This document shows positions 19,289 to 43,454 of a DNA stretch of 54,271 nucleotides, in pieces. Location of the stretch: the NCBI GenBank assembly GCA_947628345.1, contig CANQZM010000003.1, positions 1 through 54,271 of the forward strand, written 5' to 3'. The stretch's first letter is position 1. Each line of letters begins with the position of its first letter. The DNA is from an uncultured Bacilli bacterium. Its GTDB lineage: Bacteria; Bacillota_I; Bacilli_A; RF39; UBA660. A program made the translations under genes and the position numbers. The notes beneath the pieces are model-generated. The model saw only the letters and a list, made by a program, of their open reading frames with translations, had not been told where the DNA came from and searched no databases.

Positions 19289-20653
19289 ATGTCATATAAT
19301 AAAATATTTGAGGAATTTTTAGAAGAAATTCAAAATGAATCATATGCATCAGTAGATGAAGTACGTAAAGTTACTTACGATATGTTACAAATTATTCAAA
19401 ATAATAAAGATGCTACGCCAGAGGAATTAGTAGAAAAAATAATAGTAGATAATGTTAGATTATTAGAAGATATTAAAAATTCTTATCCTATTCCTGGATA
19501 TACTGTAGGAGTTACTGTTAACAATATTAATGTAAAGTTATTTGGTGGAGATATTGATTCTATGCAAAGAAAAATGCCTGATAATGCTTTATTTGATATT
19601 GCATCAATGACAAAATTTTATACTCAAATAGTTGCTTATAATTTAATAAAAGAAAAAGTATTTTCTCTTTCTGCTAAAATTAGTGATTTAGATCCTAAAT
19701 TTGAAAATTTAAATGATTTAACAGTAAGAGATATACTAACTTTTACAACTAATATAGCAACTAATGGACGTGTTGAGGATGCTAACACTGTTACAGAAGC
19801 ATTAGATAGATTATACCAATCTAGTGTTGTTTCTAAAGGAGAATATCAATATACTGATATTGGACTTATGATAATGAAAGAAGTAATGGAAAACACTACT
19901 GGTATTTCTTATGCTGATTTAGTAGATAAATATATTATAAAACCGTTAGGATTAAAAGATACTCATTTAATAGTACCAAAACAAAAAATAGATTTAGTTA
20001 CGGGAACACCTAATGCTAAGATGGGTAAAGTAAATGATCCTAAAGCTCTAGCTCTAGGAGGATATAGTGGTCATGCTGGAATAGTTGCTTCCAGTGATGA
20101 TTTAATCAAATTAGCTAAAGGAGTAACAGAGGGAATTATTCTTCCAAAAGAAGGACTAAAAGATGCTTATACTCCTGGTGTTAAGCCTATTCGTGGTGTG
20201 ATGGGTAATACTTATACTTCTCATGAAAAAGGAATAGACGCTAGTTATGTTGATAAATTAGAACCTATTACTAATTTTGCTATTCAAGGAAGTACTCGAG
20301 TTCAAATGAACATAAGTAAAACTTGGAAAGGAGCTGCTACTATCTTATTCAATCCAGCTTCTATGTCACTTGAACAAGCCTTAGAAGAAGAAACTAAGAT
20401 TAATGAGAAAAGAGCATTAAATAATCAAGCTCCTCTATCCTTAGTAAAGCATTTCAAATTTAACCAAAAAGGTGATGCTATCGAATACGACTTAATTAAT
20501 CCTGTTCAAATGGCACCAAGTGGCAAAACGGTTGAACCAGTTACTACTGAAAATGCCAAACTTGCTTTACGACTTAGATTCCTAAGTAAAGTAATTGACG
20601 CTTATGATAAAAATTATACTAAGGAAATTACTGTTAGTAAAAATATCAAATAG
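19289..20653 (+). CDS. Serine hydrolase, beta-lactamase/class C fold
   Basis: Protein of 454 residues with the penicillin-binding fold. The nucleophile motif SMTK is at residues 106-109. The second motif appears as YTD within EYQYTDIGLM (YxN in most members), and SGHAGI lies near residue 262 in the usual third-motif region. There is no signal peptide or membrane helix, so it would act in the cytoplasm unless exported another way. That argues against a classical peptidoglycan enzyme and for an esterase or peptidase of this superfamily. ATG at 19289 follows GGAAGTGAG. It separates recO from the glyS transcription unit. Confidence 0.85.
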   Translation: MSYNKIFEEFLEEIQNESYASVDEVRKVTYDMLQIIQNNKDATPEELVEKIIVDNVRLLEDIKNSYPIPGYTVGVTVNNINVKLFGGDIDSMQRKMPDNALFDIASMTKFYTQIVAYNLIKEKVFSLSAKISDLDPKFENLNDLTVRDILTFTTNIATNGRVEDANTVTEALDRLYQSSVVSKGEYQYTDIGLMIMKEVMENTTGISYADLVDKYIIKPLGLKDTHLIVPKQKIDLVTGTPNAKMGKVNDPKALALGGYSGHAGIVASSDDLIKLAKGVTEGIILPKEGLKDAYTPGVKPIRGVMGNTYTSHEKGIDASYVDKLEPITNFAIQGSTRVQMNISKTWKGAATILFNPASMSLEQALEEETKINEKRALNNQAPLSLVKHFKFNQKGDAIEYDLINPVQMAPSGKTVEPVTTENAKLALRLRFLSKVIDAYDKNYTKEITVSKNIK

Positions 20654-20657
20654 ATTA

Positions 20658-20686
20658 TTGACATGATAACAAAAAATTAGTAAGAT
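20658..20686 (+). promoter_or_regulatory. promoter of the glyS T-box operon
   Basis: TTGACA at 20658-20663, 17 bases, TAAGAT at 20681-20686. It starts just 4 bases after the stop of the serine hydrolase. The expected transcript start near 20693 leaves only about 68 bases before the T-box sequence. Confidence 0.65.
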
Positions 20687-20692
20687 TAAAAT

Positions 20693-20816
20693 GAATGTTG
20701 TGATGACCGGGGTGGAATCTCGACCAGCAGTATATAGAAAGTGATTCTTCTAGAATAAATAAGGTGGAACCGCGGGGTAACTCGTCCTTATATAAGTTCT
20801 AGAAGTTTTTGTTTTT
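20693..20816 (+). promoter_or_regulatory. short T-box riboswitch, probably glycine-specific
   Basis: The T-box core AAGGTGGAACCGCGG at 20761-20775 and the pairing CGTCCTT downstream form the antiterminator. CTTCTAGAA (20747-20755) pairs with TTCTAGAAG (20797-20805) before a T-run, giving the competing terminator. The tRNA-acceptor-pairing bases are TGGA (20765-20768), which match a tRNA ending UCCA, as expected for bacterial tRNA-Gly. Upstream there is room only for a tiny Stem I: CGGG (20708-20711) and CTCG (20719-20722) close a loop holding GGA, a glycine codon followed by A. It precedes a LOG-like gene and glyS. The specifier assignment is inference. Confidence 0.85.
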
Positions 20817-20829
20817 TAAGGAGGAGTAG

Positions 20830-21375
20830 ATGAATTTATTTGTTGGAAGTAGTTCTTATAATGAGATTAGTAAAAATTATTTAGAAGATGCCAAAGAACT
20901 AATGGAAGAAATTGCTAAAATACCTAACCTTAATCTAGTAATTGGGGCATGTCAAAAAAATTGTGGTATTATTGATATTTGTTATGAGAAATTTAGAAAA
21001 AATGCTAAGCAAATATGTGGTATAACTTTAAAAAAGTATCATGATAATAATGACTTAGAAGTTGATGAAACTATTGAAGTAGATACAACCATGGACCGCA
21101 CTAAATTAATTTATCAAAAGAGTGATTTTATTTTATTCTTACCAGGAGGACTTGGAACTCATAGTGAATTATTTTCAATACTTAGTGAAAAGATAGAAAA
21201 AAACGATAATAAAACAGTAATAATTTATAACAAAGACTTTTTTTATACACCTATAATTAAAGAATTATACTACTTATATCAAAATAAATTTATTAAGAAA
21301 AATATAAGTGATTATTGTTTAATTGAAAGTGACAAAGAAAAACTTATAAAGTTAATAGAAAAGGAGAGTATGTAA
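20830..21375 (+). CDS. LOG-family (lysine decarboxylase-like) nucleotide phosphoribohydrolase-like protein
   Basis: Rossmann-like protein of 181 residues. It has the LOG-family nucleotide motif PGGLGTHSE near residue 103 and the preceding MDRTKLIYQKSD helix. LOG proteins cleave nucleoside 5'-monophosphates to free base and ribose phosphate; the natural substrate in bacteria is usually unknown. The start has AAGGAGGAG and sits 13 bases after the T-box terminator, and the stop abuts glyS. It is therefore under the same tRNA-sensing control, which is an unusual placement. Confidence 0.8.
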   Translation: MNLFVGSSSYNEISKNYLEDAKELMEEIAKIPNLNLVIGACQKNCGIIDICYEKFRKNAKQICGITLKKYHDNNDLEVDETIEVDTTMDRTKLIYQKSDFILFLPGGLGTHSELFSILSEKIEKNDNKTVIIYNKDFFYTPIIKELYYLYQNKFIKKNISDYCLIESDKEKLIKLIEKESM

Positions 21376-22746
21376 ATGTCAAAATTAACGATGGAAAAAT
21401 TAGTAGCATATTGTAAACAATATGGATTTATCTTTCAGGGAAGTGAGATATATGGTGGTTTAGCTAATACTTGGGATTATGGACCATTAGGAGCTAGATT
21501 AAAAAATAATATTAAAGATTCATGGCGTAAGAGATTTATTCAAGAACGTCCTAATGCTTATGAAGTTGATGCAGCAATTTTAATGCATCCAAAAGTTTGG
21601 GAAGCAAGTGGTCATGTTCAAAGCTTTTCAGATCCTTTAGTAGATTGTAAGGAATGTAAAATGCGACATAGAGTCGATAATTTAATTGATGAATTTAATC
21701 CTGATGCTCATGCTGATGGTATGACAGAAGAAGAAATGATGCAATATATCAAAGATAATCATATTCCATGCCCTAATTGTGGTAAACATAATTTTACAGA
21801 TATTAGAGAATTTAATTTAATGTTTGAAACTCATCGAGGAGTTACTAAAGATAGTAAGGGATTAGTTTATTTACGACCTGAAAATGCTCAAGGTGAATAC
21901 GTTAATTTCTTAAATGTTCAAAGAACTATGAGAGCTAAATTACCATTTAGTATTGGTCAAATTGGTAAAGCTTTTAGAAACGAAATAACTCCTGGTAACT
22001 TTACTTTTAGAACAATTGAATTTGAACAGATGGAATATCAAACCTTTTGTAAAGAAGGAACAGACAGTGAGTTATATAATTATTTTAAGGACTTTGCTAA
22101 AAAGTATTTTGTTGATTTAGGAATTAAAGAAGAAAAATTAAGATTTCATGATCACGAAAAATTAGCTCATTATGCCAAAGAAGCTTGTGATATTGAGTAT
22201 GAATTTAATTTTGGATGGGGAGAGATAAATGGTACTCATAATAGAACTGATTACGATTTATCACGTCATGAAGAATACTCAACAGTATCACAACAATATC
22301 TTGATCCAGAAACCAATGAAAAATTTATTCCATATATAATTGAATCAACTGTAGGGTGTGATAGAACTGTTTTAGCAATTTTAGATAATTCATATGAAGA
22401 AGAATTACTAGAAAATGGTGAAACAAGAGAAGTAATGCATTTTCATCCCTATCTTGCTCCATACAAGGTGTCAGTACTTCCTCTTGTTAAAAAGTATCAT
22501 AGTAATGAGGCAACTAAAATTTATGAAGAACTTTCTAAAAAATTTATGTGTTCATATGATGAAGCAGGTAGCATTGGAAAAAGATATCGTAGACAAGATG
22601 CAATTGGAACTCCTTTCTGTATCACGATTGATGATAATACTATAAATGATAATACTGTAACAGTAAGAGATAGAGATACAATGGAACAAATTACATTATC
22701 ATTAGATGAAGTATCAAAATATATTGAAGAAAAGATTGTATTTTAA
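21376..22746 (+). CDS. glyS: Glycyl-tRNA synthetase, alpha2 type
   Basis: Single-chain dimeric class IIa GlyRS of the archaeal/eukaryotic type (456 residues), not the GlyQ-GlyS pair. The N-terminus has FIFQGSEIYGGLANTWDYGP. The C4 zinc-like site CKECKMRH...CPNCG lies near 92-137. Class II motif 2 reads FRNEITPGN..TFRTIEFEQ, and the anticodon-binding domain starts near 360. The start at 21376 directly follows the LOG-like gene stop with AAGGAGAG upstream. Regulation is by the T-box at 20693-20816. Confidence 0.96.
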   Translation: MSKLTMEKLVAYCKQYGFIFQGSEIYGGLANTWDYGPLGARLKNNIKDSWRKRFIQERPNAYEVDAAILMHPKVWEASGHVQSFSDPLVDCKECKMRHRVDNLIDEFNPDAHADGMTEEEMMQYIKDNHIPCPNCGKHNFTDIREFNLMFETHRGVTKDSKGLVYLRPENAQGEYVNFLNVQRTMRAKLPFSIGQIGKAFRNEITPGNFTFRTIEFEQMEYQTFCKEGTDSELYNYFKDFAKKYFVDLGIKEEKLRFHDHEKLAHYAKEACDIEYEFNFGWGEINGTHNRTDYDLSRHEEYSTVSQQYLDPETNEKFIPYIIESTVGCDRTVLAILDNSYEEELLENGETREVMHFHPYLAPYKVSVLPLVKKYHSNEATKIYEELSKKFMCSYDEAGSIGKRYRRQDAIGTPFCITIDDNTINDNTVTVRDRDTMEQITLSLDEVSKYIEEKIVF

Positions 22747-31962: not shown

Positions 31963-31968
31963 ATAGCT

Positions 31969-32180
31969 ATCGACAGTGATTAAGAAGTAGTAATAAATGA
32001 TTTATTTATAGAGAGATTGCATTTGGTGGAAGCAATTAATAATAGTTTATGAATTCGTCTTAGGAGTCCTTATTAATAGTAAGCGTATTTCTTGCGTTAA
32101 AAGATTTAAGCGTATAGTATTAACTATAAATTAAGGTGGTACCGCGAACATTTCGTCCTTATGATGAAATGTTTTTATTT
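31969..32180 (+). promoter_or_regulatory. T-box riboswitch, phenylalanine-specific
   Basis: A full-length T-box. Stem I carries GAAGTAG on the 5' side, AGAGAG, a GGTGGAAG distal loop, and the specifier TTC (Phe) at 32054-32056. The T-box core AAGGTGGTACCGCG lies at 32133-32146. The acceptor-pairing bases are TGGT, matching a discriminator A as in tRNA-Phe. The competing terminator pairs AACATTTC (32147-32154) with GAAATGTT (32166-32173) before a T-run. It controls pheS and pheT by tRNA charging. Confidence 0.95.
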
Positions 32181-36875: not shown

Positions 36876-36881
36876 TAAATT

Positions 36882-37062
36882 ACCTAAAAGATGCGATACT
36901 GGCAACTCATAAAACCCACTAAAGTAACGATACGGGAGTTCGGATCAGTTATCCGTGTTGAAGACCTATATTAATAGGGATCCTAAAGATAACGTATGGA
37001 CACCCACCTGTAAATGTGCAGGTTTTATCGTTTCGCTAAGACGCTCTTTTGGGCTTTTTTTA
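36882..37062 (+). ncRNA. ssrS: 6S RNA (SsrS/BsrA type)
   Basis: A roughly 180-base gene-free transcription unit with its own promoter and a terminal T-run. Its two ends pair as a closing stem: CCTAAAAGATGCG (36883-36895) with CGCTCTTTTGGG (about 37043-37054), twelve pairs with one bulged T. Inner parts form further helices around an open centre, for example AACTC (36905-36909) with GAGTT (36936-36940), and the segment GGACACCCACCTG near the 3' end resembles Firmicutes 6S RNAs. 6S RNA mimics an open promoter and holds the housekeeping RNA polymerase. In Bacillus subtilis bsrA also lies near the tcdA homologue yrvM, as it does here. Confidence 0.78.
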
Positions 37063-43377: not shown

Positions 43378-43454
43378 GTCCTTGTAACTCAGTTGGATAG
43401 AGTATCCCTCTCCTAAAGGGAAAGTCGGCAGTTCGAATCTGCCCAAGGACACCA
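43378..43454 (+). tRNA. tRNA-Arg (anticodon CCT)
   Basis: Full cloverleaf: acceptor GTCCTTG with CAAGGAC, D arm with AGTTGGA, anticodon stem TCCCT/AGGGA around the loop CTCCTAA (anticodon CCT, reads AGG), T arm with GTTCGAATC, and an encoded CCA (43452-43454). The gene stands alone between two terminators. Its 3' end is part of a repeat found again at 44792 and 47488, which marks it as the likely target of past integrations. Confidence 0.97.

Follow-up and report, generated by a model that had tools for sequence, protein, structure and literature searches.

We describe a T-box leader of ~125 nt, spanning 20693-20817 of the window (the whole stretch of DNA analysed here, 54,271 nt from an uncultured Bacilli bacterium), with a LOG-like gene and then glyS downstream. 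We hold it very probable that this leader is a transcription-terminating tRNA-Gly T-box whose Stem I is reduced to a kink-turn and a hairpin, 3-7 bp long across relatives, with the codon in its apical loop, and which lacks the interdigitated T-loop contact to the tRNA elbow, along with Stem II and the IIA/B pseudoknot. That a T-box leader with an ultrashort Stem I is real, beyond chance, is confirmed at the level of sequence; comparison of related leaders, and only that, establishes the hairpin and its codon box, the C-stem of the kink-turn, the absence of the other domains and the pairing of the terminator.

The leader, its promoter and its homologues

A promoter-like pair of boxes, the hairpin, the T-box UGGA and the U-tract were all found at their stated positions (Table 1).

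Table 1. Features of the glycine T-box leader and its operon, in window positions.
Feature	Positions	Strand	Details	Basis
Promoter -35 box	20658..20663	+	TTGACA	direct reading
Promoter -10 box	20681..20686	+	TAAGAT, 17-nt spacer	direct reading
Kink-turn, 5' side	20699..20706	+	C-stem UGU (20699-20701), then GAUGA	C-stem covariation; GANGA in relatives
Ultrashort Stem I hairpin	20708..20722	+	4 bp, 20708-20711 with 20719-20722; possible closing G-U 20712/20718
Specifier codon (putative)	20714..20716	+	GGA (glycine); U20713 before, A20717 after	GGN-purine in relatives; own tRNA-Gly(UCC)
Kink-turn, 3' side, and C-stem 3' arm	20726..20729	+	A-GCA	comparative alignment
Linker	20730..20743	+	single-stranded, replaces Stem II and IIA/B; ends in purine string AAGUG (RRRNG)
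Stem III	20744..20756	+	AUUCU-UCU-AGAAU, then AA	helix in 134/134
Antiterminator	20760..20790	+	A1 UAAGG/CCUUA, 7-nt bulge UGGAACC, A2 GCGGG/CUCGU	RF00230 alignment
T-box bulge	20765..20768	+	UGGA, complementary to tRNA-Gly 3' UCCA	relatives; own tRNA-Gly
Intrinsic terminator	20747..20817	+	CUUCUAGAAU (20747-20756, within Stem III) with GUUCUAGAAG (20796-20805), U-tract 20806-20817
Shine-Dalgarno	20819..20824	+	AGGAGG; 3' of the terminator, outside it	direct reading
LOG/SLOG-type ORF	20830..21375	+	TIGR00730-like, 181 aa, ATG at 20830; first gene of the regulated operon
glyS, glycine--tRNA ligase	21376..22746	+	second operon gene	NF003211, 637.9 bits

Against the Rfam T-box model RF00230, the stretch 20645-20792 scores 41.9 bits, with an E value of 3.3e-8 when scanned locally and 3.4e-8 genome-wide, well short of the model's gathering threshold of 93 bits. 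From this match the discriminator is certainly that of a T-box, and the rest of the leader scores poorly because Stem I, as the model sees it, is missing. Eight better-scoring T-boxes occur in the same genome, five of them above the RF00230 threshold; among 20 ultrashort loci sampled, Rfam lists 17 at E <=0.01 with scores of 32-47 bits, which all fall short of the threshold, and at this standard cutoff it misses ultrashort glycine leaders. The leader has the features that define a T-box discriminator, with A1, the 7-nt UGGN-ACC bulge, a terminal G-U pair in A2 and a Stem III of the form RRRNG...AA.

Twelve leaders that precede LOG-glyS or glyS in related genomes share the same compact design, and a covariance model was built from six of them with the Stem I hairpin left unpaired. 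At E up to 1e-3 this model finds a match in 189 of the family's 193 genomes (>120 above 60 bits), the weaker matches including canonical T-boxes for other amino acids. Loci were taken for ~137 leaders, three with a long Stem I were removed, and 134 ultrashort leaders were aligned; the design recurs in most genomes of the family, about 130 in all. Samples of the class (296 genomes) and of the phylum (392 genomes) gave no clear match outside the family. Among the named carriers are Candidatus Faecimonas gallistercoris and Candidatus Scybalousia intestinigallinarum, Faecimonas being placed by NCBI in Bacilli incertae sedis. A LOG/SLOG-type gene separates the glycine T-box from glyS in the genus of the window and in some others.

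Across the 134 leaders the T-box bulge reads UGGA in 131 and UGGG in 3, the RRRNG purine string is present in 118, and the spacer between Stem I and Stem III has a median of 14 nt and a maximum of 20 nt, which is too little to accommodate Stem II or IIA/B. Upstream, where transcription is predicted to start at ~20693, the distance from the kink-turn to a -10-like hexamer (at least 5/6 matches) has a median of 14 nt in the relatives; the two-box promoter score reaches at least 9/12 in 122/131 of them, against 30/131 for a control window further upstream. Since the promoters sit just upstream of the kink-turn, no long Stem I is concealed. A transcript start far upstream that would restore a normal Stem I, which the sequence-only reading had named as grounds for refutation, is therefore unlikely.

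Folding of the leader as a single sequence gave no significant result against shuffles (z -1.49, 16/200), so that the case against chance is comparative and rests on the 134 homologous leaders. Counting against the proposed structure, the minimum-free-energy fold pairs the 5' part differently, and the Stem I hairpin contains G-U pairs. The leader could also be the non-functional remains of a T-box whose Stem I has decayed away, a reading in keeping with both the poor Rfam score and the insignificant fold but scarcely credible in view of the family-wide conservation and of compensatory changes in the C-stem, the hairpin and Stem III/terminator. Real decay looks different: a decayed copy of the ultrashort leader at L246:179-269 has both its codon loop and its T-box degraded and gives a picture of real loss.

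An ultrashort Stem I with a glycine codon in its loop

The base of Stem I is a putative kink-turn whose C-stem pairs covary among the relatives (UGC/GCA, AGC/GCU, UGU/GCA, AGU/GCU, AAC/GUU and GGC/GCC), with the reservation that the alignment was fitted to this stem, which biases the counts toward it. GANGA follows the C-stem in 123/134 leaders; counting against a kink-turn, the 3' strand in the window is ACCA, not the canonical GGA. The hairpin above it was tested separately, having been left unpaired in the covariance model because automatic alignment misplaced its arms. When 3' arms were swapped among 115 distinct arm pairs, the observed helix score of 9.10 stood against 7.22 after swapping (standard deviation 0.18), a z of ~10 that 0/2000 swaps reached. 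In the largest gapless group (35 sequences) the four successive pairs form in 71, 100, 97 and 80 percent, each with three to five pair types. The relatedness of the sequences makes arm-swap tests optimistic; the number of compensated types is nonetheless large.

The loop of this hairpin reads UGGAA in the window. GGN followed by a purine occupies the codon positions in 134/134 leaders, with variation confined to the third codon base (GGA 114, GGC 15, GGG 3 and GGU 2, with L118 reassigned by eye from GGU to GGC); the preceding base is U in 133/134. The freedom of the third base is the more telling because the covariance model, built from GGA members, is biased to GGA. The genome of the window encodes a tRNA-Gly(UCC) with discriminator U73 and CCA, which fits both GGA and UGGA, and the inference from the sequence alone that UGGA suits a tRNA-Gly with U73 thus agrees with a tRNA of the organism itself. 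The GGC-specifier leaders keep UGGA as their T-box. We found tRNA-Gly(GCC) in 11/15 of the GGC-specifier genomes, which are drafts, and its presence cannot separate GGC from GGA genomes since most carry both tRNAs. On this comparative evidence the apical-loop GGN is read as the glycine specifier and not as a Stem I distal loop, tRNA-Gly binding being inferred, and the original proposal of an ultrashort glycine T-box with an apical codon is supported.

Two other readings of the loop were weighed. The first, already raised as a doubt in the sequence-only reading, takes it for a remnant of the distal T-loop end of Stem I, contacting the tRNA elbow, with no specifier at all; the window loop GGUGGAA does fit the distal consensus GGUGNAA, and the pheS T-box in the same window carries UUGGUGGAAGC in its distal loop. 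Yet GGUGNAA occurs in only 15/134 relatives while UGGNR occurs in 133/134, the AG-bulge sequence AGAGA in 0/134, and the one variable base is exactly the wobble position. The hairpin also stands directly atop the kink-turn, in the place of the specifier region. Moreover, long-Stem-I glycine leaders of the same family (L045 and L209) have a separate distal loop of their own together with the same UAUGGA on the 3' side, shortly 5' of the kink-turn GAGC, and share the discriminator of the ultrashort leaders. From this layout the ultrashort form looks like a Stem I cut just above the specifier, and a distal-end remnant is very improbable. The second reading makes the loop UGGA a duplicated T-box bulge, that is, another acceptor-end site and not a codon. 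It draws on the occurrence of UCCA at both 34-37 and 73-76 of tRNA-Gly(UCC) and of GGUGGAA twice in the leader; against it, the loop reads UGGC in 14 of the 15 GGC leaders and AGGC in the remaining one, with the T-box still UGGA, a pattern that suits a codon but not pairing to a constant U73, and ultrashort aspartate leaders carry GAC in their loop, so that it deserves next to no weight.

These aspartate leaders, in another Bacilli family (f5; L315/L338 and L341-L346), appear to provide an independent check on the reading of the apical loop as a codon, with the codon swapped. Their short hairpin bears the loop CUGACA, which contains GAC (Asp) plus A, and its stem is compensated in several different ways. 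They stand before hisS (L315/L338, L344 and L346) or aspS (L341, L342 and L345), and a long-Stem-I hisS leader of the same family, L340, contains GTGACACTT in the corresponding region. Like the glycine leaders they combine an apical-loop codon on a short hairpin with a U-tract terminator in a Bacilli host; unlike them they have a GAC codon and hisS/aspS targets and keep an IIA/B-like ACG...CGUUA element. No obvious Stem II was seen in them. They form a second, codon-swapped group of short-Stem-I transcriptional T-boxes in Bacilli.

A Stem III-based terminator and a proposed switch

A U-tract is present in 132/134 leaders, and in 127 of these 132, where it is clear, the 3' arm of the terminator pairs best with the Stem III region, so that the terminator encloses the antiterminator. 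Swapping of arms between terminator and Stem III gives z ~18, and ~20 when restricted to the 80 leaders whose Stem III is variant. The 5' arm of the terminator is Stem III and not, as had also been considered, the antiterminator's 3' half.

Control at the level of translation, as in the actinobacterial short-Stem-I T-boxes, with the U-tract hairpin as an incidental feature, would accord with the mostly translational action of the short-Stem-I T-boxes known so far (PMC7583486, PMC10482949), but the near-universal U-tract, the covarying terminator and a Shine-Dalgarno sequence that lies 3' of the U-tract and is unpaired in the OFF fold render it highly unlikely. Termination remains our preferred reading. 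With it, the description of the leader now goes beyond that of the sequence-only reading in its kink-turn base, its lack of Stem II and IIA/B, its Stem III-based terminator and its family-wide design.

For the window, an ON fold (Stem I, Stem III and antiterminator) was computed at -12.4 kcal/mol and an OFF fold (terminator with the antiterminator nested inside) at -22.5 kcal/mol. Since the OFF fold keeps the antiterminator and lies 10 kcal/mol below the ON fold, it is not obvious how tRNA blocks termination, and the terminator raises the question of how a T-box switches if terminator and antiterminator coexist on paper. We propose that uncharged tRNA-Gly(UCC) would be read twice, the specifier GGA pairing with UCC and the UGGA bulge with the 3' UCCA, while U-1 and A+1 of the specifier loop could add pairs to A37 and U33. 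The discriminator assembled on the tRNA (antiterminator plus the Stem III purine string) would then hold Stem III, whose sequence, the 5' arm of the terminator, would be occupied; no terminator would form and glyS would be transcribed. With charged tRNA the discriminator would stay unassembled, the 3' arm would invade Stem III and transcription would stop before the operon. The binding of tRNA, the sensitivity to charging and the locking of Stem III are all inferred here, with no binding or transcription data.

A Stem III-based terminator enclosing the antiterminator is also found in the long-Stem-I glycine T-boxes of the same family (L045), so this arrangement is not tied to truncation. Another T-box of the window's own genome, in L002, may use a similar one.

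Relation to known T-box classes and occurrence in Bacilli

Four classes of T-box have been distinguished (PMC10482949): class I with a long Stem I and Stem II; class II, specific for glycine, with a long Stem I and a linker; class III with a short Stem I, an apical specifier and a required Stem II, mostly translational; and the intermediate class IV. By the same account, pairing at the specifier, and with it tRNA binding, always has the help of the elbow-binding T-loop module, of Stem II or of the two together (PMC10482949). In other T-boxes a truncated Stem I deprived of Stem II shows hardly any tRNA binding (PMC7583486, PMC10482949), which counts against the design proposed here, and the elbow contact is described as necessary for the speed of transcriptional T-boxes (PMC7583486). 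It has been argued that the strength of GGC-GCC pairing lets glycine T-boxes manage without Stem II (PMC7583486), whereas most of the ultrashort glycine leaders use GGA-UCC. Set against these classes, the leaders compare as follows:

(i) With class II (the B. subtilis glyQS type) they share glycine specificity, a glyS-type target, a kink-turn followed by a linker without Stem II, a discriminator with a Stem III purine string, and transcriptional control. They differ in a Stem I that has nothing above the specifier region, and hence neither an internal specifier loop nor a T-loop elbow contact, in a specifier that is mostly GGA and apical, and in a terminator drawn from Stem III instead of the antiterminator 3' strands.

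(ii) With class III (the Nocardia farcinica ileS type) they share a short Stem I without elbow contact, a kink-turn base and a specifier in an apical loop of ~5-8 nt. Class III, whose members act mostly on translation, depends on the IIA/B pseudoknot and on a Stem II with an S-turn, whereas the ultrashort leaders have neither Stem II nor IIA/B, control termination, belong to a Bacilli host and have tRNA-Gly as their ligand.

(iii) In described T-boxes generally, the 3' strands of A1 and A2 become the 5' strand of the terminator (PMC7583486); in the ultrashort leaders these strands do not form the terminator 5' arm and the antiterminator stays nested.

The ultrashort leaders join a Stem I resembling that of class III to the linker of class II and have neither aid to specifier pairing, a combination that fits none of the four classes of that 2023 paper (PMC10482949). 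We somewhat favour a fifth class, transcriptional and devoid of both elbow T-loops and the Stem II S-turn, in which a kissing-loop pairing of the codon and a contact with the tRNA 3' end would suffice and in which locking of Stem III would replace the mutual exclusivity of antiterminator and terminator. TBDB mentions class I matches with a predicted truncated Stem I (PMC7778990), and single ultrashort examples may therefore already sit there; the searched passages of a 2008 survey do not mention the ultrashort glycine form, the comparative literature being covered only in part. A ~125-nt leader that has neither grip and is conserved in a gut Bacilli family allows a direct test of how little a tRNA sensor can consist of, with >100 natural variants and the long-Stem-I relatives as built-in controls; an ultrashort T-box would also offer engineers a compact part.

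The long-Stem-I leaders fall at scattered places on the GlyS tree (4 changes), which establishes neither a single nor a multiple truncation; Stem I may have been truncated repeatedly, or glyS may have been transferred along with its leader.

Two ultrashort glycine leaders occur together in the genomes G151 (L069 and L155, with specifiers GGA and GGG) and G212 (L167 and L308, with GGA and GGC). L334 (G344) contains a tandem pair of T-box antiterminator/terminator units. Elsewhere in the window, a canonical T-box (122.7 bits) lies at 31967-32163, directly before the pheS- and pheT-like genes, and Rfam reports a 6S RNA at 36878-37059 and a tRNA gene at 43378-43451.
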